Shown piece after piece: positions 34,301-59,869 of a stretch of DNA of 64,000 bases. The position numbers and the translations under genes were made by a program. This stretch comes from Plumapathes pennacea. Its lineage: Eukaryota > Cnidaria > Anthozoa > Antipatharia > Myriopathidae. Location: NCBI GenBank assembly GCA_964036295.1, contig OZ038471.1, positions 13,968,184-14,032,183 of the forward strand, written 5' to 3'. Under the pieces are notes generated by a model. The model made no database searches. It had not been told where the DNA came from and saw only the letters and a list, made by a program, of their open reading frames with translations. Position 1 is the first letter of the stretch. Each line of letters starts with the position of its first letter.

Positions 34301-37300
34301 TAATTTTTAGTCTGTACACAATTGCAGAAAGCTCTTTTGAAACTATTCGAGCTTAAATTTAAGGTTGAGTTTTACTCAGCAAAATCTTGCTCAAATGTTT
34401 GGCGTGTCACGATGGACTATGATAAAGAGAATTGCCACTTCTTCATGCAAAAATAAAATAAAGTGCAGTGGAGACAAACACCTTTTAAGGTCTCTATTTT
34501 ACTTTAGAGTGCCGAGTATCGAGTGCGTCAATCACTGACGTCCCGTTGAAATTTTAAAATGGGGGCGAAAATCCGAAATCGCTTATTATTCAGCCCGTGT
34601 GTAAATCTTGAGGGTTCACAAATATAGTACAACTAATAAGATTCTTTCTATTCGTAAAACTATGTTTTAAGTTCGAGAAACATTTGTTTCGGTTCGGTAC
34701 TAGCGACCGGCCGGTATTGACGTTTTGATGTGGCTTCGAACAATCACACTGAGGTCTATCAGAAAGGCAAAGAGACCAACATTTCACTAAAATAAGCCAT
34801 TAAAATATGTCTGGGATAGCAAGAACAGCACGACAGCAAGTATCCCACAGGAAGTTAGGAATATTGGTAACTTGATCGACTCGAATACGGTATTTTAGTT
34901 CGTGCAGTGATTGAAGAAAACTCAAAATGTAAAATCGACAGTGTACTAAAGTTAGAGGTGATTTATCTGTCAGAAATTTGTGGCTTTGTAGAGACAGAGG
35001 GGTCGTGGCGACTCCAATCGCAAATTGTCAGATAGTCGAAGTATGCGATTTGTGAAACTCTTCATGTCCCTATTCGGAATAGTTAATACAAACATGTGTC
35101 CCAAGGACCTAAACAGCTTTCGAAAAATATTACAGGCCTTTCACATTTAAGAAATGTAAATAGAGTTTGCATCTGCCCTCTATTATATCCCTCTTTTTTT
35201 AGTCAAGAAACGTACTGCAGTTGCAAATCAAAACAAAATTCATCCAAAAATGAACTGGAGAACCTGACAGTACTTTTAACCTGGTTTTGCGCATAACCTG
35301 TCGCTTATGTACAAAACTGTTTTAGTGCTTACTTTACATTAATGGTAAATCAATTTACATAACATTGATTTGTTTAAATTTTTACTTATAATGAAATCCT
35401 GGTTGAAAGAGTTCCTTTTTTGTACATTATCAATTTTGACAGATACTTGAAGTAAGGGAAAAAACTGCGAAGATGGATCTAATATATACCCTTTTGTTGA
35501 CATGCATTTCTTACCGCAGCTTCGAAGTTCTTGTTTGGTTGGAGTCGATAATGCGTCTTTCCTTGTGGTATTATTTCACTTGGTATCAAACGCAAACCAC
35601 AGTTGTGCGGCAAATTAAAATCATCTATGAAACAACATGTTCTCAGTTTCACACCTTTTCCTGGTGCATTAATCTAGAAGCAAAAAATAAATAAATAAAT
35701 AAAATGTATGTTAAGCCATGCTGTATTTTAATGCTCGTGTCAAATTTTACTAAGAGAGGCGAAAAGCCCTTGGACGTACATGCAATCATACCTGACAACC
35801 GTACATAGGAGAAAGGGGTGCGGTGGGACCTCCGGTCCTCCTTGGGTTTTTCATCCATAAAAATATATTTTACATATTTCACTTTCAGTGGATAGCCTGT
35901 AGCATATTTTACAAGATAAGACAATTTTAGGGATTTGGACCTAGTTAAAGGGCTATGCTAAGGGGGTAGAATTTAGCCTTCCATTATGACGCCCATGGCA
36001 TCCGTTTTCAAAAGCCTGTATTTTCTTCCAGAAGCAACAAGAACTCGCACATCACTGATATGACCTTTTTGGTTTGAAAGTAATTCCTGGTGACTCGAAT
36101 ATAAAAGCATGGCAGCCATGCTGGTTCCGAGTACAATAGGAGCTAATGAGTGTTCTATTGTTAAAGTTCATCCAACATGGCCGCTTTGACGTCAGTTGCA
36201 TACGAAGAATATGTTCTTTGTGTTTCATTACTCCTTTTTTCCTTTCATCAAAATTTTCCAAAGTACCTCCTATGAAATAAGCTCAAAAAGATAAAAATAG
36301 CACAAAAATATTCCCCAAAAACCTTAAGGAGGTTGGATACGTCCAAGGGTTAAAGATTCTTCAGTCGATTTGTCTAACAATTTATGTTTCAGGTATATGC
36401 AGTAAAAAATTGGGTAACGAAAGGCACACATATATTTATAATATACTGGACGTTTGTATATCTCACCACAATACGTTTAACCTTCAGTCGAGCCCTCTGC
36501 CTGCACTCTTCTGGTCCTGTCATGTACACATTCAATCCCACACGAAACAAGTGTGCTCCGGTCTTTTCGTTGATTTCTTCTAAGTTTCTCCCTTGTTTGC
36601 CAATTACGATTCCTTTTAATTCATTTGGAATGATGACCAATTCTTTCGATGCCTCCTTCTATAGATGTTGACATTAATAGAGAAAGCAAAAACGGCTATA
36701 AAAATGCTTGTGCAAAAGTGAGATTACAGAATAGTTTCGATCCGAATAATGTTAGAATAAGCCATCAATTCAAATCGTCATTTTTACATTGTTTGTCCCT
36801 GATGAATTTGCGTTGTGTTGACTATTAAAACATGTCAAGTGTAAGGTTAAAACAGCCCTTCTTTGTCTTCCTTTGTTTATTTTTTATTTGTCGTCTCAGT
36901 ACTTGTTAGCTATGCAATCTTCACTCCGGAATTTCTTGTATTTGATTACCCCTTCAAATTTGCCTGTTAATATTTGTTGCGTTTGTCACTTGAGTCCTTG
37001 TGTTTTGTTGCTGAGTTCGTTAGCAGTCTCGATCGTTGTGTTTGTAGCTGAAATCAGGCCAGATGTTTATTTTGTAGAAAACCGTCCACGCGATCATTTT
37101 ATTGAATAAAGGATAAGATGATATTTTTCTTTGAGTTTTCGTTGGCAGGCGCGTGGACCTTGAACACTCTGGCATAAACTGGCATCGGGTAGAGTTACCA
37201 CGCTTCATCAACAGTTCCTTCTTTCTTTGGCCTTCGGCCTCACCTCAAGACCTCGCTTTGGCGCTCGTGTCTACACTTCGGATTTTCAAATGCACTGTTT

Positions 37301-43300: not shown

Positions 43301-46300
43301 AATGCCTAAGAAGAATGTTCAAAATTTGATCCATGCACTTAGCTTATATTTAGTTATCGAGTTTTGTCTCCTTACTATAACGAACCGTATAAAATGTTGC
43401 AGGAATGAATCAAACGAATGTTAGTTACTAACCACTTCCTTTGTTTGTCACCGGCTCGAGGCTCTCGTAATGGTTTTCTGCCAGCAGTCCTAACAGAATG
43501 GGTGCAGCATGTGAATCACCAGTTTCGATAATCACGTGGTGGTTATCAGAATCGGTACTCAGGACCACTCTGATAGGTCTGTCCAGTGCATGGGAAAGCG
43601 CAGCGAGTACCAGGTCGTCGCCCCACTGACCATCCATAGACATCCGATTCAAATATCCTTCCAGATCCATTCCCTCCACAAAGTTTGACAAATCATCATG
43701 CGACAGCTTCGTGATGAAAAAAATAAATTTCAAAACAAAATTTGATCTGACAAAGGATGACATTTCCAGGCTATGAATGATGGAATAAGTACTCACTCCA
43801 AATGACTGGTTCCGAAGTGTTTGGACTGCCTTTAGTCGCAATTCACGATGCGATCTTTTTGCCATTCCCAGCCTTTGAAGTTGGTCCGATACCGCATGGA
43901 ACAGACAGTTTCCATCATCAGTTGCTATCCCTAATTGGCGAAGTTGTAGTCCGTCTTCACAGATGTGCCTGTCTAGACGGATCCGATGTTCCTGGAGAGT
44001 GATATTCTCAGCAATTGAACGCTGTCTTGTTTCTTCCATGTCTAGCAGGAAACGATGATATGCTACAGGACCTAGAAAACGAAAGGGTGGACATTGTCAT
44101 GATCGGTCATAATTGGTCAAATATATTAACGAAAGCTTTAATAAATTGTTTTGTCTGGATTTGACAGAGATATAGAGGATATTACATGGCCGTGCGGATA
44201 CGAATTTTATCTTCTAGTGTGGATAATATCTCTCACGAGTGAGCGCAGCGTTCTGTTTATTATACAGATATCGATAAAATATCCAGAAAATGACGTATCT
44301 CATAACCTTTATTTCCTGTCAGAACTTGCTGTGTTCAAACATTGCGCGCATAGTGAACATATCATTGTTATCTCTCGCGTGTGAAGATATCGCGCGTAAT
44401 ATATCTTTTGCAATTTCGATAGACCCTTACCGGTGTCTCCAGTTGAAGTTCTGCTTATTAATGGATCGGTTGTGTTCTTTGACACTGGCTTCTAAAATAA
44501 GGTTAAAGAATACAACAACATAAGCCCTCGGACGTACACAGAAGCCACACTCTTTGCAACTATATTTGATATTCCAAATCACAAGCAAGTCATTTATTAT
44601 TTTACCACTGCAACTGCATGGGTTTGATTTTTGAATAACATGTTATGCAAAGACGACAATAACAATAAACAATGTTTGTTGTAATGAAAGAAACATAAAC
44701 TGTATTTGGCATTTACTGAACTCGACGGTTTCGACAGTACTTTTTAAATAAAAGGGGAATTACTTTAAGGATTTCGTAATCCTTGGTTTTGAGCAATAAT
44801 GGAGGATGGATCAAATCCGGACAAGAGTACCAACTGCTCTGCCAAATGATAGAAGAAGACAACGATTTACGCCATGTTCATAACGAAAATTTTATCCAAA
44901 AACCAACGTAAACGGGTATGACCACTGATTAAAGGACCACGATATTTACTATTTCAAAACACTGAACCATACATGGAGGTTCTTCGAATTGTATCCGAAA
45001 AACTAGTGAAATAATAGAAGCACTTTATGTAACGATTTACCTCAAGCTCTTCCGAGACATCTGTTGCATTTGGCCGCTGAACGGGATCATAGCAAAGCAT
45101 TCTTGCAATCAGTGACTTGGTCCAGATGGTCTCCTGAGAAAAGTCGCCGTCTTCAAGACTTGGAGGTTGGTTGGCGCTACATATGTTGGTTTGGCATTTC
45201 TTCAGATCTTTTACTGGGCCAAAAAGATGATGCCCGTTTGAAATGACGTAGTAAAATACACATCCTAGCGAAAACAAGTCAGCTTTGGTTGTTATTCGTG
45301 CTTCTGGTTTATAAAGTTCAGGAGCAATGTAGCCGTAGGTTCCAGGTGGGCTTCCAACCACAGTTGACGCTGAGTGTACATTCTTTGCAATATTGCAGTC
45401 AGCAAGAACAAACCGCGGTTGTTCTGAGCGCGACAATAGAATGTTGTCTGGATTAATGTCCCGGTGACATATGTTGCGATCGTGTAGGTACGCAACAGCT
45501 CCAATGATTTCCCTCAGACACCTGAGCCCGTCAAGACTACTGTCCTTTCTGTGAAAGTTGTTCTGCTTTACACAGTCTGTCAATCTTTTTTCACAGAGCT
45601 CTAACGCCAAGTAGACAAACTCTTTTTCTTCCTCCACTTCAAAGCACCTAATAACGTTGGGATGATCCAGTTTCTTTAATTTTTCTGCTTCATCTTTGAC
45701 ATAGTTTCCTTCGTCCGACCCTTTGTACATCTTCTTCACAGCTACCCTCTTTCCCGAGAATGTTCCTTCGTAGACTCTACCTTGGGATCCCACGCCAAGT
45801 AAATCTTTTTCACAGTATTTTATGCATTTTATCTGGACCTGCAAGAAGAGTAAGTGGGTACTTTAAAATAGGGGAAACCTGAGCCTAGTCACGTCTTGTC
45901 TGATTATACATGACTGGTCCCACGCAGCCGTGCACCTTGCTCGCTCCAGTCCCCGGGCATTGGTCGGAAGAGAAAGAAGGGACTGCATTTGCACAATATA
46001 GTACTATACTTTATCTATTTAGTTTAACTGTCTTCGCTGATCTTGCAACTGCTGACCGTTAGATTTAATGAAGTAATGTTTTTGCGTTTTGCACGGACAA
46101 ATCTTTTAGAATAAAAACGTTCCAGATGTCACCAGTCCAACAAAATTTGATCCAATCGAATTTAGGAATTATACGGAAGTTAAAACTGAGCTTAACTAAT
46201 GTGTTTGCTGTACGCGGTAACTAAACGGCCATTTTGAATAGCTCAGCTAATTTTCCCGCGTTAAATGTCGCTGCGCAATGCGTTCGTCAATTTTGTCAGA

Positions 46301-46976
46301 TGTCACTTAACTTATTTTTTACTGACAAGCCTACCTCAGTCTGGTGATGCAGAGCGTCAAGCTTGGCAGAAATTGTTGTCAGTTGTTCTTTGATGTCTTC
46401 TTCTTCATTTTTCCACTTGAACAAGAGTTGGATGTATAAATCCTCATCTAAAGGAGCAATTTTCAAACGATCAATTTCTGATCGGTCGAGACCCAGTCGG
46501 ACTAGCGTGTCTGACAGTTCTATCCAGTGTGCACTGAACAGAGAACCATCAAATCCCGTCGTGGTCACGTGTGCATGAACCTCATTTCTGAACCACTTGA
46601 TTCTCGCTAAATCTGCTTCACGTGATGTATCAGTTGAAACTGGCTTTTTGTCCCAACCTGAAGTTGGTGGGTGTAGACCGCAGATGTTGCGAAGCAGAAC
46701 AAACAGCAAGGTAATGTCGAAGTTCCTGGAGTCGGGCGGATTTCCACTTGGTGGAAACAACAAATCCCACTGTGTCTTGTTGATAACTTTCTTGTTCAAC
46801 AGCCGAAGAATGGTACTATAATGTGTGTTGAGGGAGGCTTGCAATGTGACTGGAGGATGAATACCATCAAACACATTCTGAAGTACTAGCCTTCCACCGT
46901 CTATAATTATACGGCTTAACCTGGCACCATTCGCCTTCTTCCGAGAACTTCTTAAGGCAGTAGCTAAATTCGACAT
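23992..46976 (-). CDS. Gene A: HEPN - IRE1-like kinase - OTU protease - KH multidomain protein
   Basis: Exons from 5' to 3' on the minus strand: 46335-46976, 45041-45838, 44431-44491, 43797-44071, 43433-43706, 43178-43263, 37789-37849, 37508-37561, then 36467-36658, 35515-35673, 35216-35280, 32341-32620, 32072-32231, 31349-31566, 29178-29376, 28411-28673 and 23992-24165. The first eight join in phase to about 750 codons. The last nine also join in phase to 570 codons ending in TAA. The single junction 37508 to 36658 is out of phase, so one exon is missing or these are two genes. Domains in order: DZIP3-type HEPN (1-214), IRE1-like kinase (215-480), OTU (about 501-684), duplicated Thr-rich linkers, KH, and an unfamiliar region of about 500 residues. 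An RNA- and ubiquitin-linked immune or stress role is inferred from the domains only. Confidence 0.72.
25252..25350. repeat. TTA/ATT trinucleotide microsatellite
   Basis: About 33 uninterrupted TTA repeats, inside the last intron of gene A. The leucine and isoleucine runs in overlapping frames are artefacts of the repeat. Confidence 0.95.
26793..27190 (+). pseudogene. Decayed transposon reading frame with Arg/Glu-rich repeats
   Basis: The plus strand encodes tandem motifs of the type RRAEETxPQREQRLK, split over two frames near 26948, so at least one frameshift has occurred. Such RRxxETPxQREQRL repeats are seen near the N termini of Helitron-type transposon proteins in animals; the assignment is by resemblance only. 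The upstream block (CTCCAAGCGGGTCGCCATCT near 26605) and the downstream block (TCATTTCCCCTCGAAGTATT near 27309) recur around a second copy at about 30280-30810, showing one mobile family. No helicase or replication domain is present. Confidence 0.55.
27888..28025 (+). repeat. Dispersed repeat, copy 1
   Basis: This segment, from GCGTGTAGCACTTGAGTTCG to CGATTATCGTATTTCTAGT, matches 54079-54210 in the same orientation at roughly 80 per cent identity by eye. Both lie in introns (gene A and gene B). No coding frame is conserved between the two. Confidence 0.7.
28411..28673 (-). CDS. Gene A, penultimate exon
   Basis: The minus-strand exon starts after TTCTACAG in phase 1 and ends at CAAAAACAG before GTCAGTG. 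It reads EEETRQKSSSDKKEDAVLVE and then LSHLRLREERDDELPLPDK, ending with a stretch rich in Arg and Cys (NVFRRCCRRSVFTPDKDF). It joins in phase directly to exon 29178-29376 (split codon AGG, Arg) and to the last exon. An open frame between them at about 28830-29019 would break the phase, so I leave it out. The family is unknown. Confidence 0.65.
29178..29376 (-). CDS. Gene A, internal exon
   Basis: The minus-strand exon lies between a TTAG acceptor and GTGAGT donor. It reads VWVKDKHDEGHKDETPLDLV, then LEEFSFEDERTNDHCKGWLC, then PPTKARLRANIIFPACDFDC and ends RLVIRK. Phase 0 at the start agrees with the end of exon 31349-31566. The mix of acidic and Cys/Trp residues reads as a globular domain, not as chance open frame. 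I cannot name it. Confidence 0.65.
29464..30100. mobile_element. 637-bp TTAA-flanked inverted-repeat element (piggyBac-type target site)
   Basis: The ends GGTATCACCCCCAAA and TTTGGGGGCGATACC are inverted copies, each flanked by TTAA (29460-29463 and 30101-30104). Internal inverted matches are long: TTTTTGACTTAATGTCCCTC near 29633 faces GAGGGACATTAGGTCAAAAA near 29892, and CATATGAAAG faces CTTTCATATG. It has no coding capacity. It sits in the gene A intron between exons 29178-29376 and 31349-31566. Confidence 0.85.
30280..30810 (+). pseudogene. Second copy of the Arg/Glu-repeat transposon remnant
   Basis: It shares with 26580-27340 the block CTCCAAGCGGGTCGCCATCT (30285), a TCTTCAAAAGAGAAGGGAACA-like core (30486; here RESRLQKRREH), a DEMTPQREQRM motif and the tail CTGCATGTTGATCATTTTCT (30770). 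Stops and frameshifts interrupt the frame. It is a relic in a gene A intron. Confidence 0.5.
31349..31566 (-). CDS. Gene A, internal exon
   Basis: The minus-strand exon starts in phase 1 after CTGCAG and ends at TGCAAG before GTACCA. It reads GEEDVLWALKDAANKLPADT, then SDPKSKTQWRTVFKGGMDFV and VGPQLEIFLRKPLYETRHDF, ending with REVRCK. The split first codon (g|gg, Gly) joins exactly to exon 32072-32231. Neighbouring exons before and after are in phase, which makes a chance frame unlikely. The domain is not recognised. Confidence 0.68.
32072..32231 (-). CDS. Gene A, internal exon
   Basis: The minus-strand exon reads RHEAWKGPRYLEELKTRISR, then CLLEIKNHVKSGAKESNDMW and CHFGTIYIENVDK. It starts in phase 0 and ends in phase 1 (AAAG before GTTTGT). 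The acceptor (TTTAAAAG) is weak, so the first few residues are less certain. The amphipathic helix followed by a W-C-x-F-G-T strand is a distinctive pattern worth a structure search. Confidence 0.6.
32341..32620 (-). CDS. Gene A, internal exon
   Basis: The minus-strand exon starts after a strong acceptor (TTTTTCCCCAG) with one base of a split codon. It reads HVTANPFTKLEFSLSSTPSS, then QVYLTQFGEFGSSARQSLKL and a KKKK-containing stretch, ending FPTFYLTLD before GTACGT. A second donor 12 bases downstream (GAG before GTTAAA, at 32329) would also keep phase. Joined to exon 35216-35280 it makes a split CAA codon. Beta-rich appearance; no family recognised. Confidence 0.58.
34109..34437. repeat. Inverted-repeat pair in a gene A intron
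   Basis: AATTCTCTTTATCATAGTCC (34113) is mirrored by GGACTATGATAAAGAGAATT ending near 34437, with CATCGTGACACG continuing each arm inward. About 30 bp of arms bracket about 270 bp. No target duplication is visible. It may be a small MITE. Confidence 0.55.
35216..35280 (-). CDS. Gene A, small internal exon
   Basis: A 65-base minus-strand exon between AAACCAG and GTACGT. It reads VKSTVRFSSSFLDEFCFDLQ and ends in the first two bases of a Gln codon that is completed by exon 32341-32620. It is the only segment I found that reconciles phase 0 from exon 35515-35673 with phase 2 of the next exon. Support is from phase and splice sites, not homology. Confidence 0.55.
35515..35673 (-). CDS. Gene A, internal exon after the KH domain
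   Basis: The minus-strand exon has a strong acceptor (TTTTTTGCTTCTAG) and donor (GTAAGA). It reads INAPGKGVKLRTCCFIDDFN, then LPHNCGLRLIPSEIIPQGKT and HYRLQPNKNFEAA, exactly 53 codons. It follows the KH exon in phase 0. The family is not recognised. Confidence 0.65.
36467..36658 (-). CDS. Gene A, KH-domain exon
   Basis: The minus-strand exon of 64 codons lies between ACATCTATAG and GTGAGA. It encodes a KH type I RNA-binding core: KELVIIPNELKGIVIGKQGR carries the I-G-x-x-G loop (GKQG) followed by NLEEINEKTGAHL and the strand GLNVYMTGPEECRQRARLKV. KH domains bind 3-4 bases of single-stranded RNA or DNA at the GxxG loop. The exon joins the following eight exons in phase. Its upstream junction is unresolved: the previous exon I found (37508-37561) ends in phase 1. 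A candidate for the gap is an open stretch at about 36903-36963, but its phase does not close the gap. Confidence 0.8.
37508..37561 (-). CDS. Gene A, small linker exon
   Basis: A 54-base minus-strand exon (TTTTCTACAG ... GTAAGT). With the split first codon it reads EVSRGAQAKKKGIWIVPF. It follows exon 37789-37849 in phase. It ends in phase 1, which does not fit the KH exon, so either another exon lies between or transcription units change here. Confidence 0.45.
37789..37849 (-). CDS. Gene A, duplicated linker exon (second copy)
   Basis: A 61-base minus-strand exon that reads QPVGKNTTDPVVTRTSTKTT. It matches in length, phase and most residues the 61-base exon at 44431-44491 (KPVSKNTTDPLISRTSTGDT). 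Both follow TTATTTTAG acceptors and precede GTAAGG donors. The Thr-rich sequence is probably a flexible, possibly phosphorylated or glycosylated spacer between domains. Confidence 0.7.
39540..39722 (-). repeat. Fragment of the transposon family seen at 26580 and 30270
   Basis: Reverse-complemented, this stretch reads CTCCAAGCGGATCGCCATCA and AATTTAATGTTCTCTGTCAGTC, the same block that precedes the Arg/Glu-repeat remnants on the plus strand. It lies immediately beside the 1.34-kb tandem duplication. Confidence 0.55.
39723..43075. repeat. 1.34-kb tandem duplication with a third partial copy
   Basis: Copy 1 is about 39723-41058 and copy 2 about 41059-42396, offset by 1336-1342 bases and nearly identical. 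A diverged third copy (42394-43075) lacks the first 130 bases and the end. Copies contain no convincing gene: the short open frames (for example from 39979 and 41321) are conserved only because the DNA is. The block lies in the gene A intron 37850-43177, which it expands to more than 5 kb. Confidence 0.9.
40879..41068. repeat. 190-bp palindrome spanning the copy 1 / copy 2 boundary
   Basis: GCCATATAATAAATATCTTA... GGTCCGTACCGTAAGTTATGGA (left arm) is mirrored by TCCATAACTTACTGTACGGACC... TATTTATTATATGGC (right arm), with CGTCGCCTTATGGCC facing GGCCATAAGGCGACG and a GC-rich centre CTCGCGCGAAGCGCGCTCG. A second palindrome ends copy 2 at about 42220-42397, where the right arm is cut short. Such a stem can extrude a cruciform and may have driven the duplication. 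Confidence 0.85.
43178..43263 (-). CDS. Gene A, exon after the OTU domain
   Basis: The minus-strand exon reads VGAQELHTEEVSGMGFGFPS and QTAVKSKA, ending before GTAAGT. Two acceptors 6 bases apart (CTACAG at 43264 and GGTAG at 43258) both keep the frame, adding or dropping Val-Gly. It joins OTU exon 2 in phase 1 and the second linker exon in phase 0. Confidence 0.65.
43433..44071 (-). CDS. Gene A, OTU cysteine protease domain (two exons)
   Basis: Exons 43797-44071 and 43433-43706 encode an OTU-family deubiquitinase fold. The catalytic Cys lies in TDDGNCLFHAVSDQL (C about residue 556, with the oxyanion Asp three residues earlier), the WGDDLVLAALSHAL helix follows, and the general-base His is in AENHYESLEPV. 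All three landmarks are present, so the enzyme is probably active on ubiquitin chains. The leading segment (MEETRQRSIAENITLQEHRI) is a charged helix typical before OTU cores. The 90-base intron between the exons (43707-43796; GTGAGT...CGAAG) has no stop and is a multiple of 3, so its retention would insert 30 residues between the Cys helix and the rest. In gene B this position is taken by a helicase instead. Confidence 0.9.
44150..44402. repeat. Dispersed repeat in a gene A intron
   Basis: GGATACGAATTTTATCTTCT (44199) and CACGAGTGAG resemble blocks at 15168 and 24318, and ATATCTCTCAC / GTGAAGATAT words are inverted within it. It is probably a MITE-type element; ends are not clear. Confidence 0.4.
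44431..44491 (-). CDS. Gene A, linker exon after the kinase
   Basis: A 61-base minus-strand exon between TTATTTTAG and GTAAGG that reads KPVSKNTTDPLISRTSTGDT. It occupies the same place as gene B's linker exon 57476-57545 (which contains [14 protein letters not shown]) and is duplicated at 37789-37849. All three are phase 0 to phase 1 exons, a symmetry that allows different downstream modules to be spliced on. Confidence 0.75.
45041..45838 (-). CDS. Gene A, IRE1-like kinase exon
   Basis: One 266-codon exon (CTTCTTGCAG ... GTAAAT) holds a whole kinase domain closest to IRE1/RNase L kinases (compare [38 protein letters not shown]). Present: glycine loop [12 protein letters not shown] lysine K249, HRD 339-341 with metal-binding N346, APE 386-388. 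The usual DFG is DCN (361-363), keeping the Asp. The domain stops after the last kinase helix (YDPVQRPNATDVSEELE) and no KEN endoribonuclease follows, unlike IRE1 and RNase L. Conservation of the core residues suggests ATP binding and possibly catalysis. It is about 90 per cent identical by eye to the gene B exon. Confidence 0.93.
45900..45995. mobile_element. MITE remnant shared by the kinase-HEPN introns of genes A and B
   Basis: CCTTGCTCGCTCCAGTCCCC followed by GGGCATTGGTCGG and AGAAAGAAGGGACTGCAT matches intron DNA of gene B at 58527-58590 and, reversed, the TA-flanked element at 23407-23530. The rest of the intron (45839-46334) is also homologous to that of gene B, which is 209 bases longer because of an insertion near 58680-58930. 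Confidence 0.6.
46335..46976 (-). CDS. Gene A, first coding exon: DZIP3-type HEPN domain
   Basis: The exon begins with ATG (46976) and runs 214 codons to GTAGGC. It contains the DZIP3/hRUL138-type HEPN pattern: [36 protein letters not shown], and the basic-acidic helix [13 protein letters not shown]. The R-x5-H motif (R130, H136) matches the HEPN RNase signature. HEPN domains are all-alpha dimers, often RNases. The C-terminal helix ([20 protein letters not shown]) is coiled-coil-like. The start is supported by the identical position in gene B. The minus-strand upstream region is also similar in the two genes. Confidence 0.9.
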
Positions 46977-52106: not shown

Positions 52107-52526
52107 TTAATCCTCCTCGTTCACCTCTTTCTCCTCCTCTAAGGTCAACACTGGAATCTCAAAGCCAACTTCTGTCCATTTCTTGGCAACATTCCTCAGG
52201 CCATCGCCGTATTCAAGAACAAAACCTTTCAGTCTCAAGTTGATCCATTCCTTCTTCTTAATGACGACTTTCACTCCCCAGTGCTCGTCGCACTCTCTGC
52301 AGTGTACTTTGGTCAATTTCTCGGCATTTTGCTTCAAGATCACTTTGTCTTCAAAATGAGGTGCAATAACCACTCGAAATGACGTTTCCAAAGTCCGAAT
52401 GTGCTCCGCTTCGCACGCATGGCTGTTGCATTTCCGGCAGAACAAAGTCACGTCACTGGGTAGGTACTTAATAATTTTGCTGCTATCTTCAGGACCTTCC
52501 ATCATTGTTTTCTGAAGTTGTGAAAT
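52107..52526 (-). CDS. Gene B, last exon: RIG-I C-terminal regulatory domain
   Basis: The exon (TTTCCCCAG acceptor, TAA at 52107-52109) encodes 139 residues. The zinc ligands are two CxxC pairs, LFCRKC and VHCREC, about 50 residues apart, followed by DEHWGVKVV, as in the RIG-I domain where LCRKC and CSHDWGIHV occupy the same places. The strand [19 protein letters not shown] matches the end of the domain. It senses RNA 5' ends in vertebrates. The acidic tail ([13 protein letters not shown]) is short. Confidence 0.9.
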   Translation of the reverse strand: MSQLQKTMMEGPEDSSKIIKYLPSDVTLFCRKCNSHACEAEHIRTLETSFRVVIAPHFEDKVILKQNAEKLTKVHCRECDEHWGVKVVIKKKEWINLRLKGFVLEYGDGLRNVAKKWTEVGFEIPVLTLEEEKEVNEED

Positions 52527-55500
52527 CTGGGGAAAATAATCAACAGACGTGAACTAAGAATAAGTGCCGAATGAGCCTTTACCACGCGTGAATGTAATGT
52601 GAGATAATTTGGGTCTGACAGAAAAACAGGAAGTTTTGCAGTTAAATGTCACGGGACCTACCAAGAGTGTATTAACGGAGGCCCTACCTCCCTCCCCCCC
52701 CCTCCCCCCTCCCCCCCCCCCTCTCCCCCGTGTGTCCGAGTCCCCTGTGTCCGTGTGACTTTGTGTTAATGTCCGAGGAACAAACAGTTTAATGCTTGTG
52801 AAATACGGTGTGCAATATCTTTTAGACTACGTTTACACTAGAGCAAATGTATCCGAATTTATAAATGTTTCGGCCAGATTCATCACATTCAGGGTATTCG
52901 GATTCGCACGCGTTTACACTTTTGGTATATTTGGATTCTATTCGTATACACGAAACGATGAATCCGGGACGTATGTGTGCACGGCTGACCGTACAAATAA
53001 CTGGATTCGTCGAGAAACCCCGTTTACACACAAAAATGTTTCGGATATGTAGTGTCCGGATATAATGTTTCCACTTTGAATTCCGACTTCGAAAGTTTCC
53101 GGATTCTTGATGAAACCGGGACGTTTTGATTTCGGATTCATGTTTTGTGTGCAAACGGCAAAACGAATCCGGGACCAAAACAATCCGGATTCGTCAGGAA
53201 TCCGGATGTATTTGCTTTAGTGTAAACGTAGTCTTAATCTAATATAGCTCTGGAGAAACTTTGTCATTGTTAGAGGATTACCGAGAACCGAGTGAAATAG
53301 TTTCTTTTTTATGCTCAAACTCTTTCAATGTTGGCCTAAGTTCTGGCATTAACTGTTATCCCGTATTTCATAACTGCCTTGTCCGCTAGTCATAGTCGTT
53401 AACAAGGTCAAAACAAATTAAACAGAATAAAGTCTACTATATCACCTTCTCCTTGAATTCTTCTGGTTCCATATCCTGCGCTTGGCCAACAGCTTCAACC
53501 ATTAGACATTCGTGGTGCTCGTTCAGCGTCTCTCGTTTCAAAACTGCTGAATCGGTTCTCGCTATAATGGCGTATTTGCCTTCTTGTGCCCTTACGCGGC
53601 CGCGTGACTGCACCATGGAGATTGTGTTACTCATGACATTGTATCGAATGACATAGCTGCAGTCACTGATGTCGAGTCCTTCCTCGGCAACACTGGTAGC
53701 GAGCAGAATGTTGATCTCACCACTCTTAAACCTTTTGATGACGTCATCTTGTTTAGATCGACTCATGCCACCTGAAAGGCCAACAGAGAAAATTGTTGAC
53801 CTTCATAACGACATGTGCCTTTGGCAGTTAACGATAATATGTCAATTACGGTATTAATTTATCACTACAGGAACGTATATCAAACTACCATGGCAAGCAA
53901 TAGAAAGAAAGATATGAACCGCACGGACGAAAACGGGCCGACAGTGATTGGCTACCCACTGTGGTGGCTCCCCTGCCATATTTAGGTACTTATTCAGTTT
54001 AATGTGCAATAGTTATTATTTATTTGTTTATTTTAATTACTTATCTATATATTTTCATCTTATTAGGCAAAGCTAACATGCGTGCAGCACTTGACTTCGA
54101 AGAAATGATTGCGTCAAAACTTCAGTAAAACAAAGGCTGCTTTTGTTGAGCAGTACCAAAGTAATAGTCGCCAGAGCAAGGGGGTATCTGCGATTATCGT
54201 ATTTCTAGTATATAATTAGAGTAAATCAAACATTGAACTGAGTTTTGTCATGAGCGTTAGAAAACAAATAAACAAAGACATGGGTACTCATGTTTTTCGA
54301 GCTTTCAAGTAATGATGATAAAATTGAATATCAAGAATTGTATTTTTTGTGCAATACACGAACGATAAATCATCTTTGTATTCATATTTTGCTCACCATT
54401 TCCGTCGGGCAAATGATTGCTTCAAGGTACAAACTGATCCGTTACAAGCAATGGATATAACAGCCATGGAATTTCACTACTTACTTTCGCCGGTACCTTT
54501 TCCCACAATTATCCCGGGTTTCAAGATGTCTTTAAGTTCTTCGGTTTCTTCGATCCAGCTTAGCAATGTTTGAGCAGACTCCCGTGTTGGTATAAACACC
54601 AAGCCCTTGGATTTAGACACCAATGGAGCGTCTGCGCTTTCGCGCTCCGTGAATTTCGCATACGCAATCATCAGTTGTTTCAGCTTGAGAAGATTGGGGT
54701 TCTGAGGCTCTTCATTGGCTCGAACGTAAAGCTTCAAGGTGTCCCTTGCACGATTGTAGCGTGACATTAATTTTCTGTCCACTTCAATGAACTTCTGCTT
54801 GTTGAGCTGCGAGAAGTACCTCTCTAGGCTGTTTCTAGCGTCTTTCATTCTAGAAAACTTGTTGATTACCAGGGACACGTGGTAGACCCTTAGGTGTCTC
54901 GCATAGGTCACCTTCCTTCGATCCCCTTCGATAGCCCCTTGTTTTTCCAAATTCTCCAACCACTGACGGTATTGTGGCTGACTTGATCTGTCTGAGGGTG
55001 GCGAAGGATCGACTTCTCCTACGTCTTCTTCAATTGACTGCATAACCTTAGTATGCAATTACAAAGGTATAAATTTTTCCACACGATCTGCACATCGTAT
55101 GTGTGTGGTCTGCACTCTCAAAAATCTCTAAACAATATTTTACATACATTGCAAATCGTGGGGGAAAACGACTATACCACCCACTGACTAAACTGCACAC
55201 CATGTGGTGAAAATCTGAGACGTCTGTTGTAAGTGTAGCAAAATCTGGATCATTAGGTGCATTATGATAAAATGATGTATGATAAATTCAAGCATTAATT
55301 TAAGGAAATAATTATGTGAAAATGACACTGTACATTGGTCCAGTCTTGTAGACTGGACTCCGAAGGTTAAGCCATAGTTTAGTAACTATTTCGCATGTGA
55401 AAAGGAGCTGCTGATTACAGTCTACGGGTTTTTAATACCTCATTGATGACTTCTTCAAACTTATCAAACCTAGTTCTCGGGACTTTGACAAGTCTTCGGT

Positions 55501-58500
55501 CTGGTTGATAGGCATATTCAGACAGCTCTTCCTCGTGTTTACGAACGGTCGATATCGCCTCCGCGTCTAAGTTTGCACAAACTTGAAGTACGTGTCCCGA
55601 AGCGTTGCCTGAGTCACCGACGCCGAGTGACGCTGTCATTGCAACCACCTAAAGAAAAATAAAGAACACTAACTCTTTCACTCCCAAGAGTGATCAACTT
55701 CAATTTTCTCTTTTCAGTCTCCTATGGAGAATTTGGCATTTGATAAATCGCACAAATGACAGCTTATCAAACCATAAATTATCATTTCATCACTCATACA
55801 TTTTCTTATGATACGGTTGGGAGAATTTGTATTTTGAGCTTGCGAGTGAAAGGGTTAACAGCTGAGAACAACAGCGCAATATTGATTTATACTTATTGTT
55901 TGAAAAAAAGAAAAAGAAACAAACAGACGTGCTCTAATAAATAACATTTAGGAGTAGGAACCACTTACTATAACAGCCGAGTAGCACTAATAAAAGTGGT
56001 GTAAAAGAAATGTGAACCAGTGGGAAATACCACGAGACAATGTATAAGCAAAGAGAGGGCACTTATTTGCTTCGGACAAATATTCGTGCATATTTTCTCA
56101 CCAAAAAGTAGTTTATTGTTTAATATTCCCTTGGTATAGATCTGCAACTGTTTGTATCCCATGTCACATTACGAGAATAACGTTGTTACCTGCGGCAGTC
56201 GTGTTCCTTGCTTTAGTTTGATTGTAAGGTACTTCTCCATGATTTTGTTGTAACAATGTTCCTTTTGGGCGTGATGACATTCATCGAATATCATCAGACT
56301 GATGTCACTCAGCTCTACGCGTTTCTCTTCATTCTGGAAGGCGCTCAATAACACCTGTGCGGTCATGACAATGATGTCGTTTCTCTCCATGAGGTCTTTC
56401 AGAGGAACTCCGGATGGCTTTCCTCCCGCGATATCGCTGATTTTGTAACGATCGCTAACGTATTTCAGGAATAGTCTTTTCTGCTGCGTTACGAGGTTTA
56501 CAGTGCTTACAATGAAGACTACCTTTGGTTTTCTCGTGTTACCGAGTCCTGCAAAATAAGACGCCAGAAATCTTCAATGGCCGAATAACTTTCATGGTCA
56601 TGGTAAATCAATTTCTTACTCTACAGAGACTAACATGTTTTCTGTATTTTTTCTCTTTAATATCTCGTGTTAACTATTAAAAAACGTTCGCATCTTAAAC
56701 CAGGGAAGGAAGAGGTGATGTGGAATTCCCGCTATCTTCCCAGAAACAATATAAACTTAAACGCACACAAAAATGACCTAAAAATGGAAAATACTACTTG
56801 AAACTACTCCGGAGCGTACATCTATTTTAATATATGTGTGTGCCCAACGCTGTCCCTTTCGGAAACTTTTGCTGAACATTGTCATGATTGGTCAGATATA
56901 TTAACGAAAACAGAAAAACAGTTTCAGATGCCGTTTGCACAGTGACTAAGTGTATTGTAGGGTATATCATGACTTGCGTGAAATTTTCACAAACCTTCTG
57001 ATGCTGCTTCGACTTGAGTCTGTTCAAATTTCTTCAGATGTTCCTGCACGATATGTACGGCCACAATAGTCTTGCCAGAATTAGTTGGAGCACAAATAAT
57101 TGTGTTCTTGCCTTGAAGCGCGTCTTCTGCCAGTTCCTTCTGATATTCTCGCAAATTAAGCACCCGGGTCTCAGGGTAATCTTCGCTTTGAACACTCACT
57201 AAAAAGGAACAATTTAGTATTTTATTCTTCAAACGTAAAAATCATGTTGACATAAGTTGTCGTAAAATGTTACTAGATTTAAACCCTATTCCCAGAAATT
57301 TGTATTGGATTTAAACAAAAAAGTGGTTTGCGATAGAAAAAAGATTGAAAAACTTTTCATTTCACAAAAATGTGTAAAAACAGAAAACCGTAGGCACGCC
57401 TTCAAGTATCATTGTCACACCTTGTTTCGTACTGATAAATTTGATACTATCAAACAATTAAAATAAATTACTTACTGGTGTTTTCAGTGGGCACCACGGA
57501 ATCAGTTGTTGTGTTTGGCTGTGGTTCTACTTGTTTAGTGGTACCCTGTTTAAAGATATATCAAAGTCAATTTATGATTTCATAAGTTCAATAATTGTTC
57601 ATACTTCCAACAATACTATGAACAAATCCCGCGAATGATTTACCTCAAGCCCTTCCGAGACGTCTTCCGCATTTAGCCGCTGAACAGGGTCATAGCAAAG
57701 CATTCTTGCAATTAGTGGCTTGATCCAGCGGGTATTTTCCTGAGAAAAGTCACCGTCTTTAAGAGTTGGAGGTCGGTTGGCGTTGTATATGTCGGTTTGG
57801 CATTTCGGCAGATCTTTTACTGGGCCAAAGAGATGACGACCGTTTGAAATGACGTAGTAAAATACGCATCCTAGCGAAAACAAGTCGGCTTTGACTGTTA
57901 TTCGTGTTCCTGGTTTATTAAGCTCGGGAGCGATGTAGCCCGGGGTTCCAGGAGGGTTTCCAACAACAGTTGCCGCCGAGTGTACATTCTTTGCAATATT
58001 GCAGTCAGCAAGAACAAACCGTGGTTGTTCTGAGCGCGACAACAGAATGTTGTCTGGATTAATGTCCCGATGACATATGTTGCGCTCGTGTAGGTACGCA
58101 ACAGCTCCAGTGATTTCCCTCAGACACCTGAGCCCGTCAAGACCACTGTCCTTTCTGTGAAAATCGTTCTGCTCTACACAGTCTGTCAGTCTTTTTTCAC
58201 AGAGTTCTAACGCCAAGTAGACAAACTCTTTTTCTTCCTCCACTTCAAAGCACCTAATAACATTGGGATGATCCAGTTTCTTCAACTTCTCTGCTTCATC
58301 TTTTACATAGTTTCCTTCGTGCGGTCCTTTGTACATCCTCTTCACAGCAACCCTCCTTCCCGAGAATGTTCCTTTGTAGACTCTACCTTGGGATCCCACG
58401 CCAAGTAAATCTTTTTCACAGTATTTTATGCATTTTATCTGGAACTGCAAGAAGAATAAGTGGGTACGTCATGTTTATTGTACATGACTGGTACTCAGGC

Positions 58501-59791
58501 CTTCCCTTCCTCAGTCCACTTCCCCACGCGGCCGCGCAACCTTGCTCGCTCCAGTCCCCGGGTATTGAGAAAGAAGGGACTGCGTTGCAGAATAAGTAAA
58601 ACATTGTACTATACTTTATCTATTTAGATTAACTGTCTTTGCTGGTTTTACAACTGCTAATCGTTCAATTTAATGAAATAATGTTTATTGAATCCGTTGT
58701 CCTTTGTAGCGTATCGCACGCCTTGCGTGATGACTCAGTCTTGATTCACTCGTTATAAAAATAGCACATTTATAACAGATTCAATAAAGGTACATTTATT
58801 TTATTTTATTGTTGAGTGTTGGCGTGTGTTATCAATAGTAACTAACTCAAAAGCTGCAACCGTAACTTCCCCATACATTTTCTTATAGCCGCCATTTTGT
58901 CAAAATTCGACACCAGTTCCCCAGTCCCCGGACAAGCTTGGGCTGCCTGTGATCCAGTGAAATTTAGGAACAATACGGAAGTTAAAACTGAGCTTAACAA
59001 ATGTGTTTACTGTACGCGGTAACTAAACGGCTTTTTTGAATAGCTTAGCTAATTTTCCCGCGTTAAATATCGCTGACTCTGTGTCTCTTGTCAATTTTTT
59101 CAGATGTCACTTAACGCTAACTTAACCTAATTTTTACTGACAAGCTTACCTCATTTGGGTGATGCAGGGCGTCAAGCTTGGCAGAAATTGTTGACAGCTG
59201 TTCTTTGATGTCTTCTTCTTCATCTTTCCACTTGAACAAGAGTTGCATGTATAAATCCTCGTCTAAAGGAGCACTTTTTAAACGATCAATTTCTGCTTGG
59301 TCGAGACCTAGTCGGATTAGCGTGTCTGACAGTTCTATCCAGTGTGCACTGAACAGAGGAGCATCAATTCCCGTTGTGGTCACGTGTCCGTACAACTCGT
59401 TTCTGAACCACTTTATCCTCGCTAAATCTGCTTCACGTGATGTATCAGTTGGATTTGGTTGGTTGTTCCAACCTGAAGTTGGTGGGTGTAGACCACAGAT
59501 GTTCCGAAGCAGAACAAACAGCAGGGTAATGTCGAAGTTCCTGGAGTCGGGCGGATTTCCACTTGGTGGAAACAGCAAATCCCACTGTTTCTTGTTGATA
59601 ACTTTCTTGTTCAACAGCCGAAGAATGGTACTATAATGTGTGTTGAGGGCGGCTTGCAATGTGACTGGAGGATGAATACCATCAAACACATTCTGAAGTA
59701 CTAGCCTTCCACCATCTATAATTAAACGGCTCAACCTGGCACCATTCGCTTTCTCCGGAGAACTTCTTAAGGCAGTAGCAAAATTCGACAT
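52107..59791 (-). CDS. Gene B: HEPN - IRE1-like kinase - RIG-I-like helicase receptor, 9 exons
   Basis: Exons 59150-59791, 57644-58444, 57476-57545, 56995-57198, 56190-56548, 55439-55648, 54485-55046, 53446-53771 and 52107-52526 use GT-AG introns and join in phase throughout: 3594 bases, 1197 residues. Order: DZIP3-type HEPN (1-214), IRE1-like kinase (215-481), Thr-rich linker (482-504), DECH-box helicase with RIG-I-type insert, then the RIG-I C-terminal zinc domain. Vertebrate RIG-I has two N-terminal CARDs; none is present here. By family, the helicase and C-terminal domain should bind 5'-triphosphate or blunt double-stranded RNA in the cytosol. The N-terminal half suggests signalling or RNA cleavage by the receptor itself. 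The fusion is inferred from genomic phase; no transcript was seen. It is the tandem paralogue of gene A for the first two exons. Confidence 0.88.
52682..52730 (+). repeat. C-rich low-complexity tract
   Basis: CCTCC/CCCCCC runs in the gene B intron upstream of the last exon; T at scattered positions. No function is suggested. Confidence 0.7.
52825..53233. mobile_element. 409-bp inverted-repeat element with TTA target duplication
   Basis: The ends GACTACGTTTACACTAGAGC and GCTTTAGTGTAAACGTAGTC are inverted copies extending over about 30 bp, flanked by TTA at 52822-52824 and 53234-53236. The interior repeats TCCGGATTC/GAATCCGG-type words. The 3-bp TTA duplication fits PIF/Harbinger-type MITEs. 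It sits in the gene B intron 52527-53445. Confidence 0.88.
53446..57198 (-). CDS. Gene B, RIG-I-like helicase core (six exons)
   Basis: Exons 56995-57198, 56190-56548, 55439-55648, 54485-55046 and 53446-53771 carry the superfamily 2 helicase; the last exon (52107-52526) completes it. Motif [15 protein letters not shown] and Walker A APTNSGKT (541-548). Motif II is DECH (661-664, [12 protein letters not shown]), the RIG-I/MDA5/LGP2 form. Motif [13 protein letters not shown]. The exon 54485-55046 is the helical insert and pincer region ([20 protein letters not shown] aligns to the RIG-I arm). Motifs V and [18 protein letters not shown] and [15 protein letters not shown]. Every catalytic motif is intact, so ATP-dependent RNA binding is expected. 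The closest match by eye is RIG-I, not Dicer. Confidence 0.93.
54079..54210 (+). repeat. Dispersed repeat, copy 2
   Basis: Partner of 27888-28025; shares GTAAAACAAAGGCT and GGGGGTATCTGCGATTATCG. It lies in the gene B intron 53772-54484. Confidence 0.7.
57476..57545 (-). CDS. Gene B, linker exon
   Basis: A 70-base minus-strand exon (CTTTAAACAG ... GTAAGT) that reads [20 protein letters not shown] followed by ENT. It begins in phase 0 and ends in phase 1, like the gene A linker exons, and joins kinase to helicase. It is the point at which the two paralogues change partners. Confidence 0.75.
57644..58444 (-). CDS. Gene B, IRE1-like kinase exon
   Basis: A single 267-codon exon (TTCTTCTTGCAG ... 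GTAAAT) holds the full kinase. Glycine loop GVGSQGRV (229-236), K249 in VAVKRMY, HRD 339-341 followed by NPDN (N346), DCN at 361-363 in place of DFG, APE 386-388, and [19 protein letters not shown] as in IRE1 ([15 protein letters not shown]). It ends at the last kinase helix without a KEN RNase. The metal-binding Asp is kept, so it may be active or serve as a nucleotide-regulated switch. One codon longer than the gene A copy (ENTRW against ETIW). Confidence 0.93.
58485..58600. mobile_element. MITE remnant in the gene B HEPN-kinase intron
   Basis: Contains CTTGCTCGCTCCAGTCCCCG and AGAAAGAAGGGACTGCGTTG, homologous to 45928-45985 in gene A and to the reversed TA-flanked element at 23407-23530. 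Its presence in both paralogues places the insertion before their duplication. Confidence 0.6.
59150..59791 (-). CDS. Gene B, first coding exon: DZIP3-type HEPN domain
   Basis: 214 codons from ATG (59791) to the donor GTAAGC. The HEPN pattern is [34 protein letters not shown] and [14 protein letters not shown], with R130-x5-H136, the HEPN RNase motif. The C-terminal helix ([19 protein letters not shown]) may form a coiled coil. Same length and about 90 per cent identical by eye to the gene A exon. In DZIP3 this domain is followed by a RING ligase; here by a kinase and helicase. Confidence 0.9.
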
Positions 59792-59869
59792 TGGGCACTG
59801 GATAATTCAACCCTAGAATTGAAGATAAATTGAAAAAGTTGTGGCTCCATTCAATATAGTTGGCAGTTT

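Follow-up and report, generated by a model that had tools for sequence, protein, structure and literature searches.

A probable chimera of a HEPN-kinase front end with an MDA5/LGP2-type RIG-I-like receptor in Plumapathes pennacea

Could an RNA sensor of the RIG-I-like receptor (RLR) class be wired, within a single animal protein, to an effector of its own? A locus in the anthozoan Plumapathes pennacea raises this question. It lies in a stretch of 64,000 nucleotides (assembly GCA_964036295.1, contig OZ038471.1, positions 13,968,184 to 14,032,183 of the forward strand), called the window below; contigs are cited as C2, C3 and so on, C10 being that of the window, and coordinates without a contig refer to the window. 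A first-pass annotation of this sequence had proposed a gene of nine exons in unbroken phase, whose 1197-residue product unites HEPN, kinase, helicase and RIG-I zinc domains. Our analysis bears out this gene model, and we regard it as quite probable from the sequence that the gene encodes a chimeric RLR, in which a rearrangement, with its break in the intron following the kinase, put a HEPN-kinase front end onto an MDA5/LGP2-type receptor.

The nine-exon gene and its receptor half

The nine exons lie on the minus strand and together give an open frame of 1197 amino acids (aa) from ATG to TAA (59791-52107). All eight introns are of the GT-AG type and the window contains no N. The exons, together with the intron in which the break is placed, are as follows:

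59150-59791, minus strand: exon 1, phase 0/0; ATG and HEPN_DZIP3 domain, with RNELYGH (the Rx4-6H motif) at residue 130
57644-58444, minus strand: exon 2, phase 0/0; IRE1-like kinase domain
57546-57643, minus strand: intron 2, of 98 bp, in which the similarity shared with four further HEPN-kinase copies stops at 57634, the inferred fusion point
57476-57545, minus strand: exon 3, a 70-nt linker, phase 0 to 1, which leads from kinase to helicase in frame
56995-57198, minus strand: exon 4; helicase motif I (APTNSGKT)
56190-56548, minus strand: exon 5; helicase, DECHH
55439-55648, minus strand: exon 6; helicase motif III (TAS)
54485-55046, minus strand: exon 7; RIG-I_C insert and beginning of helicase domain 2
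53446-53771, minus strand: exon 8; Helicase_C, with motif VI QSRGRVR
52107-52526, minus strand: exon 9; RIG-I_C-RD, CxxC ... CxxC, and stop codon

In a Pfam search of the joined protein, HEPN_DZIP3 (5.6e-51, residues 43-180), Pkinase (1.3e-40, residues 224-476), DEAD (1.3e-23), RIG-I_C (3.8e-21, residues 744-867), Helicase_C (1.9e-17) and RIG-I_C-RD (5.1e-19, residues 1084-1188) all matched above their cut-offs. When splice-site variants near each junction were tried for frame retention, four combinations kept the frame, two of them giving 1195 aa and two 1197 aa; the alternatives amount to two-residue changes at the exon 1/2 and exon 3/4 junctions and leave the domains unaffected. Each of exons 4 to 8 has a counterpart exon in at least one paralogous receptor locus, and exon 9 and its counterparts elsewhere were recognised by profile. 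On the same contig there are four more copies of exon 2 (86-93% protein identity) and two more of exon 1 (88-90%). Exon 3 was placed by its splice sites and its phase, and by its similarity to 64 bp of a neighbouring locus.

The C-terminal part of the protein combines a superfamily 2 (SF2) DExD/H helicase, bearing a RIG-I_C insert and Helicase_C, with a terminal RIG-I_C-RD whose zinc-binding cysteine pairs are present (CRKC at residue 1088 and CREC at 1134), both features being those of RLRs, and the helicase motifs expected for RNA binding and ATPase activity are retained. The best chains for this part in the PDB are MDA5 (1e-111), LGP2 (1e-102) and RIG-I (6.4e-102), as against 6.2e-56 for a Dicer-related helicase and 2.5e-46 for the best Dicer-type chain in the same comparison. 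MDA5, LGP2 and RIG-I lead the Dicer-related and Dicer types by over 40 orders of magnitude, and an unrelated helicase was rejected on this ground. The RLR identity originally proposed is thus upheld, and we assign the receptor half to the true RLRs, with MDA5 as its nearest relative.

The HEPN-kinase front end and the sibling receptors

Exon 1 encodes a predicted RNase-type domain of the HEPN_DZIP3 family, recognised both by its profile and by the Rx4-6H motif, which is present in all 23 HEPN loci examined, the window gene counted in. A sequence search with this exon against solved structures gave no match up to E = 1, and in NCBIfam HEPN was without a match and the kinase matched only below the cut-off. 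For exon 2, the top 16 sequences in the PDB are all IRE1 (9.2e-42 to 3.4e-34), followed by a calcium-dependent kinase at 1.9e-25. Moreover, of the 20 kinase matches in the genome that rank next after the close family, 19 are followed on their own strand, after 34-211 bp, by a KEN match, and for this reason we place the kinase in the kinase-KEN line, that of IRE1 and RNase L. A KEN domain is absent after the kinase of the window gene, both in the Pfam search of the protein, which showed no KEN remnant either, and among the 23 KEN matches of the genome, all of which lie outside the window and away from the HEPN-kinase copies. HEPN stands on the N-terminal side of the kinase, at the opposite end from the place of KEN.

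The 23 KEN (Ribonuc_2-5A) matches, for example at C7:1.43-1.49 Mb, C12:9.77-9.79 Mb and C9:3.06 and 12.18 Mb, lie in open frames of 758-2274 aa in 18 cases, and at least 19 are found directly behind an IRE1-type kinase; kinase-KEN genes appear to be expanded in this genome.

All five C10 copies of the kinase keep VAVK and HRD, and have HRDINPDN in the place of HRDIK and DCN in the place of DFG. In 15 further copies, 14 from C3 and one from C5, the corresponding motifs are HRDIKPDN and DFN, with VAVK detected by pattern in 11. The HRDIN and DCN substitutions make it likelier that the C10-type kinase acts as a nucleotide-binding scaffold or switch than in phosphotransfer. The catalytic motifs are intact in IRE1 and altered in RNase L. 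The first-pass annotation had seen in this gene parts comparable to those of RNase L in a different order; the IRE1-type kinase, as identified in the PDB, and the HEPN_DZIP3 domain agree with that description, to which the want of KEN has to be added.

The kinase exon has at least 38 family copies in the genome, namely 5 on C10, 29 on C3, 2 on C11, and one each on C5 and C2 (a copy being a match at 49% identity or more, with a split C11 copy counted once; these counts are lower bounds). For 22 of the 38, a HEPN match on the strand of the kinase lies no more than 6 kb upstream of it (C10 5/5, C3 13/29, C11 2/2, C5 1/1 and C2 1/1), and in one further C3 pair HEPN and kinase are 10 kb apart. The 29 kinase exons of the family on C3 extend over C3:14.0-15.95 Mb. 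The window itself holds a second member, gene B, in which the partner is an OTU domain; it is given here with a neighbouring frame:

43428-46976, minus strand: gene B, 714 aa; HEPN 46976-46335, kinase 45838-45041, linker 44491-44431 (61 nt), OTU 44071-43428
36392-36658, minus strand: KH_1 frame (5.6e-10), about 7 kb downstream of gene B on the same strand

All introns of gene B are GT-AG and its exons are in phase, with DGNCLF at residue 553. The same OTU partner is found in copy3 (C10:14.04 Mb), and copy E has an OTU exon without its core, as read by eye; the protein identity of the window gene with two OTU copies is 88-93%. In one C3 locus, the only one of the 29 followed for more than 1.5 kb beyond the kinase, ankyrin repeats come after the kinase (Ank_4, 2.3e-14 and 6.4e-13), and the C5 locus has ankyrin-like frames, as judged by eye. 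No partner was recognised by eye for the C2 copy in 9.8 kb reaching downstream. A 1456-residue Ser/Thr-rich frame after a C11 HEPN-kinase copy was rejected as a partner, having no Pfam match, and a Death-domain reading of the exon after copy D was dropped when Pfam returned nothing. A Roc GTPase match (8.1e-7, above the cut-off yet weak) was obtained for a frame downstream of the exon 4 remnant near copy D that is described below. We read the HEPN-kinase unit as a reusable front end, which is placed before receptor, OTU or ankyrin parts.

A whole-genome search yielded five RIG-I_C loci, four on C10, including the window gene, and one on C11. In all three of the other C10 loci a HEPN exon lies upstream (Pfam 9.5e-39 in one, tblastn 1.6e-30 and 9.6e-36 in the others) and a CARD_2 exon is present (Pfam 2.2e-15 and 2.4e-13, the third being 90% identical to one of these), and in each of them a TRADD-N-like exon precedes the helicase. 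The TRADD-N profile scored 4.2e-4 and 20.5 bits, under its cut-off of 23.7, in the one locus scanned, the others being recognised by similarity to it. From their order and phase we infer that the HEPN, CARD and TRADD-N-like exons of these siblings are spliced together. At the C11 locus, tblastn recognised CARD and TRADD-N-like exons; the stretch covered there was 8.6 kb, including 4.7 kb upstream of the CARD exon, and gave no HEPN match.

Among the five receptors, only that of the window has the kinase. No CARD was found by Pfam in its joined protein, and six queries with CARD, TRADD-N-like and middle exons of the paralogues gave no significant match in the 64-kb window, the best having an E of 0.90 and lying off the locus. 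On the strength of these six queries, the idea of a concealed CARD or TRADD-N-like exon, such as a CARD exon upstream of the helicase, was rejected. The earlier proposal that HEPN and kinase stand in place of CARDs holds as far as the kinase is concerned, which is present where CARD and TRADD-N-like exons are not; it does not hold for HEPN, which is no CARD substitute because three sibling loci on the contig contain HEPN, CARD and TRADD-N-like exons together. The exchange appears to be one of CARD plus TRADD-N-like exon for kinase, with HEPN an ordinary part of these receptors and the kinase the new one.

The join, its origin and selection

The phases fit across the join, the kinase exon being 0/0, the linker passing from 0 to 1 and the helicase exon being entered in phase 1. 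The same succession is seen in the three sibling loci whose junctions were read: there the TRADD-N-like exon likewise passes from 0 to 1, with phase 1 at the entry to the helicase. Comparable linkers passing from 0 to 1 follow the kinase in gene B (61 nt), where the partner exon too is entered in phase 1, and in 6 of the 15 C3 and C5 loci searched by pattern (73-76 nt). The gap between exons 2 and 3 is 98 bp and that between exons 2 and 4 is 445 bp, and the latter stretch has one AATAAA/ATTAAA hexamer against 0.96 expected. We infer that all nine exons belong to a single mRNA and encode a single protein.

The front end is part of a block common to the neighbouring HEPN-kinase-OTU genes:

57634-59860, minus strand: duplicated block, which starts 69 bp ahead of the ATG and ends with the tenth base of intron 2

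Its closest relative is copy3, with 93.6 and 95.9% identity over two aligned pieces. The DNA similarity of the window gene to B, copy3, D and E ends each time at 57634, 10 bases beyond the kinase splice donor, while that between B and copy3 continues into the OTU exon. Because of this pattern we take the window gene to be the rearranged one, with the fusion made inside intron 2. It would represent exon shuffling with a visible breakpoint, in which the front end was joined to the receptor inside an intron, the classic site of such events, with the phases preserved. Remnants of receptor exons were found at two of the neighbours: 3.6 kb after the kinase of D there is a frame-broken remnant of exon 4 with intron flanks (76.5% over 341 bp, around C10:13901714-13902026), and copy3 is followed by a stretch resembling exon 3 (78% over 64 bp) and by a broken remnant of the C-terminal domain, RIG-I_C-RD (68.5% over 178 bp). 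None was found beside B or E. The remnants after D and copy3 are consistent with a tandem history, and it is plausible that the ancestral unit was HEPN-kinase-OTU followed by a receptor, and that the intervening stretch was lost in the window gene.

Two further observations concern the same surroundings. ApoL-like frames (Pfam 2.8e-15) occur after the OTU exon of copy3 (C10:14032184-14040000), on the same strand as the RIG-I_C-RD remnant. In intron 4 of the receptor, the 29 bp at 56882-56910 match 44106-44134, the end of the intron that precedes the OTU exon in B, and have matches in copy3 and E as well.

Selection was assessed on the branch of the window gene since its split from copy3; B served to polarise the changes in HEPN, and B, D and E together those in the kinase, and 17 ambiguous codons were excluded. 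HEPN and kinase together have 14 synonymous and 16 non-synonymous changes on this branch, over 324 and 1119 sites respectively (omega about 0.33, Fisher p = 0.003); the copy3 branch has 8 and 12 such changes (omega 0.43, p = 0.10). This pattern shows purifying selection on HEPN and kinase, which are thus maintained as protein in the window gene.

Proposed working, alternatives and known systems

RLRs assemble on RNA, and in IRE1 and RNase L a HEPN-superfamily RNase is switched on through dimerisation of the kinase domain. In the window protein, double-stranded RNA (dsRNA) or foreign RNA would be bound by the helicase and the C-terminal domain, and several receptors would become aligned along it. 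The IRE1-like domains, held close and nucleotide-bound, would then pair as they do in IRE1 and RNase L, and the HEPN domains would pair in turn and cut RNA, so that a CARD adaptor would be unneeded. HEPN is proposed as the RNase effector in view of its intact Rx4-6H motif, and the kinase would probably be a nucleotide-binding scaffold and not an active kinase. The sensor-effector idea of the first-pass annotation remains a reasonable hypothesis, and the domain content suggests that an animal RNA sensor has here been coupled directly to an effector. For the chimeric gene and an RNase-type mechanism taken jointly, we consider the chances somewhat better than even. The specific scheme of a one-protein RNA alarm and weapon, in which RNA-driven RLR assembly directly activates the HEPN RNase via an IRE1-like scaffold, is put forward tentatively. 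If it were true, the protein would be an analogue of RNase L with reordered domains and with no second messenger or adaptor, and one member of a wider system in which the HEPN-kinase unit is combined with receptor, OTU or ankyrin parts.

Several points weigh against a functional chimera of this kind. Exon 3 is without an intact relative, and 9 of the 15 C3 and C5 loci have no linker by our search pattern. The kinase frame runs 14 codons beyond its donor to a stop, so that a HEPN-kinase protein ending there is possible, and in the preferred model an ATG is created exactly at the exon 3/4 junction, which makes a short receptor form conceivable. The catalytic motifs of the kinase are altered relative to the consensus. 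A portion of the branch tested for selection may predate the fusion, and the fusion may be recent, in which case intact frames are no proof of function in the fused state. The probabilities that we attach to the alternatives below overlap and do not sum to one.

The alternative that survives best, though we think it unlikely, is that of two neighbouring genes, a HEPN-kinase duplication fragment ending shortly past the kinase and an LGP2-like receptor starting near the exon 3/4 junction. It draws on the tandem duplication of HEPN-kinase blocks in this region, and on the stop codon and the ATG just described. However, only 445 bp lie between kinase and helicase exons, and poly(A)-type hexamers are not in excess there; the phases on the two sides of the join agree; and the 5' exons of the siblings (CARD and TRADD-N-like) are unmatched in the window, so that the receptor would have to have lost its original start. 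Also unlikely, in our estimate, is a signalling receptor whose kinase phosphorylates a downstream target, with HEPN serving only for recruitment or RNA binding, as CARD and HEPN might in the siblings. VAVK, HRD and the Asp of DFG are retained in the kinase, and the pairing of HEPN with CARD in the siblings is a signalling layout; this reading is countered by the HRDIN and DCN motifs, common to all five C10 copies, and by the Rx4-6H motif, conserved in 23 of 23 HEPN loci. That the gene is a decaying or newly made chimera without function seems improbable: the broken exon 4 after D and the exon-3-like and C-terminal-domain remnants after copy3 could be taken in its favour, but the window gene has 1197 codons without a stop, frameshift or lost splice site, and omega is about 0.33 for HEPN and kinase on its branch. 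A wrong joining of a HEPN-kinase copy to a receptor during assembly is very improbable, for although several copies of 87-96% DNA identity lie within about 170 kb, the window has no N and the junction is intronic with matching phases, as a random misjoin would give about 1/3 of the time.

Published work is cited here for those of its parts that concern the architecture and signalling of such proteins. A survey of RLRs covers 227 proteins from 58 species in 11 main types (PMC8998645); its main text does not mention HEPN and refers to kinases only for TBK1/IKK signalling. Nematostella RLRs carry CARD (PMC8476169). The cnidarian one-CARD RLRs (NveRLRa and NveRLRb, PMC8476169; type C, PMC8998645) share with the window gene the MDA5/LGP2-like helicase, RIG-I_C and RIG-I_C-RD, whereas the window gene lacks CARD and the TRADD-N-like exon and has HEPN and an IRE1-like kinase; its siblings have CARD. 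Cnidarians and brachiopods have RLR-like receptors with TRADD-N fused to them, and fusions of TRADD-N with HEPN are reported apart from these (PMC8195603). The RLR fusions resemble the window gene in having an immune domain grafted to the N-terminus of an RLR, the window gene being without TRADD-N, and no kinase-RLR protein is mentioned in the 12 of 20 kinase passages of that source that were covered. Lophotrochozoan RLRs show a like exon-level exchange of N-termini, theirs being DED, Ig, SAM, caspase and death domains (PMC8998645). An RLR with both HEPN and kinase was not found in the literature covered, supplements, subscription journals, preprints and protein databases being outside the search.

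KEN has been placed in the HEPN superfamily, and the partners given for DZIP3-type HEPN domains are TPR, Zn-ribbon, RING, ankyrin, CARD, NACHT, death and LRR, with kinase and helicase not among them in that account (PMC3710099). In several cnidarians, most of them anthozoans, NACHT is combined more often with HEPN_DZIP3 than with any other partner (PMC8260672), and HEPN_DZIP3 is expanded in a pearl oyster, with Rx4-6H in 194 of 202 (PMC9646362). In a survey of 15 cnidarians MAVS was not found and the RLR signalling route was called unclear (PMC8260672); in a 2026 study, however, one of the immune-cell genes of Nematostella is named as a MAVS homologue (PMC13319465), so that the cnidarian signalling gap may be smaller. 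A receptor with its own RNase-type module would offer one direct answer to the question of how cnidarian RLRs signal.

Within the same genome, the HEPN-kinase-OTU and HEPN-kinase-ankyrin genes share the HEPN-kinase-linker front end of the window gene, their partner being OTU or ankyrin and not a helicase. RLRs with grafted N-termini were already known; an IRE1-like kinase in the position of CARD and TRADD-N is unexpected. RNase L and IRE1 resemble the window gene in having an IRE1-type kinase, a HEPN-superfamily RNase and an attached sensor in one chain. They differ from it in that the HEPN of the window gene is of the HEPN_DZIP3 type and N-terminal, with no KEN, and in that its sensor is an RLR helicase in contrast to the ankyrin repeats of RNase L or the luminal domain of IRE1. 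The genome of P. pennacea thus has a family of genes with HEPN and an IRE1-type kinase, and in at least one locus these are followed by ankyrin repeats, an arrangement that has the components of RNase L differently ordered.

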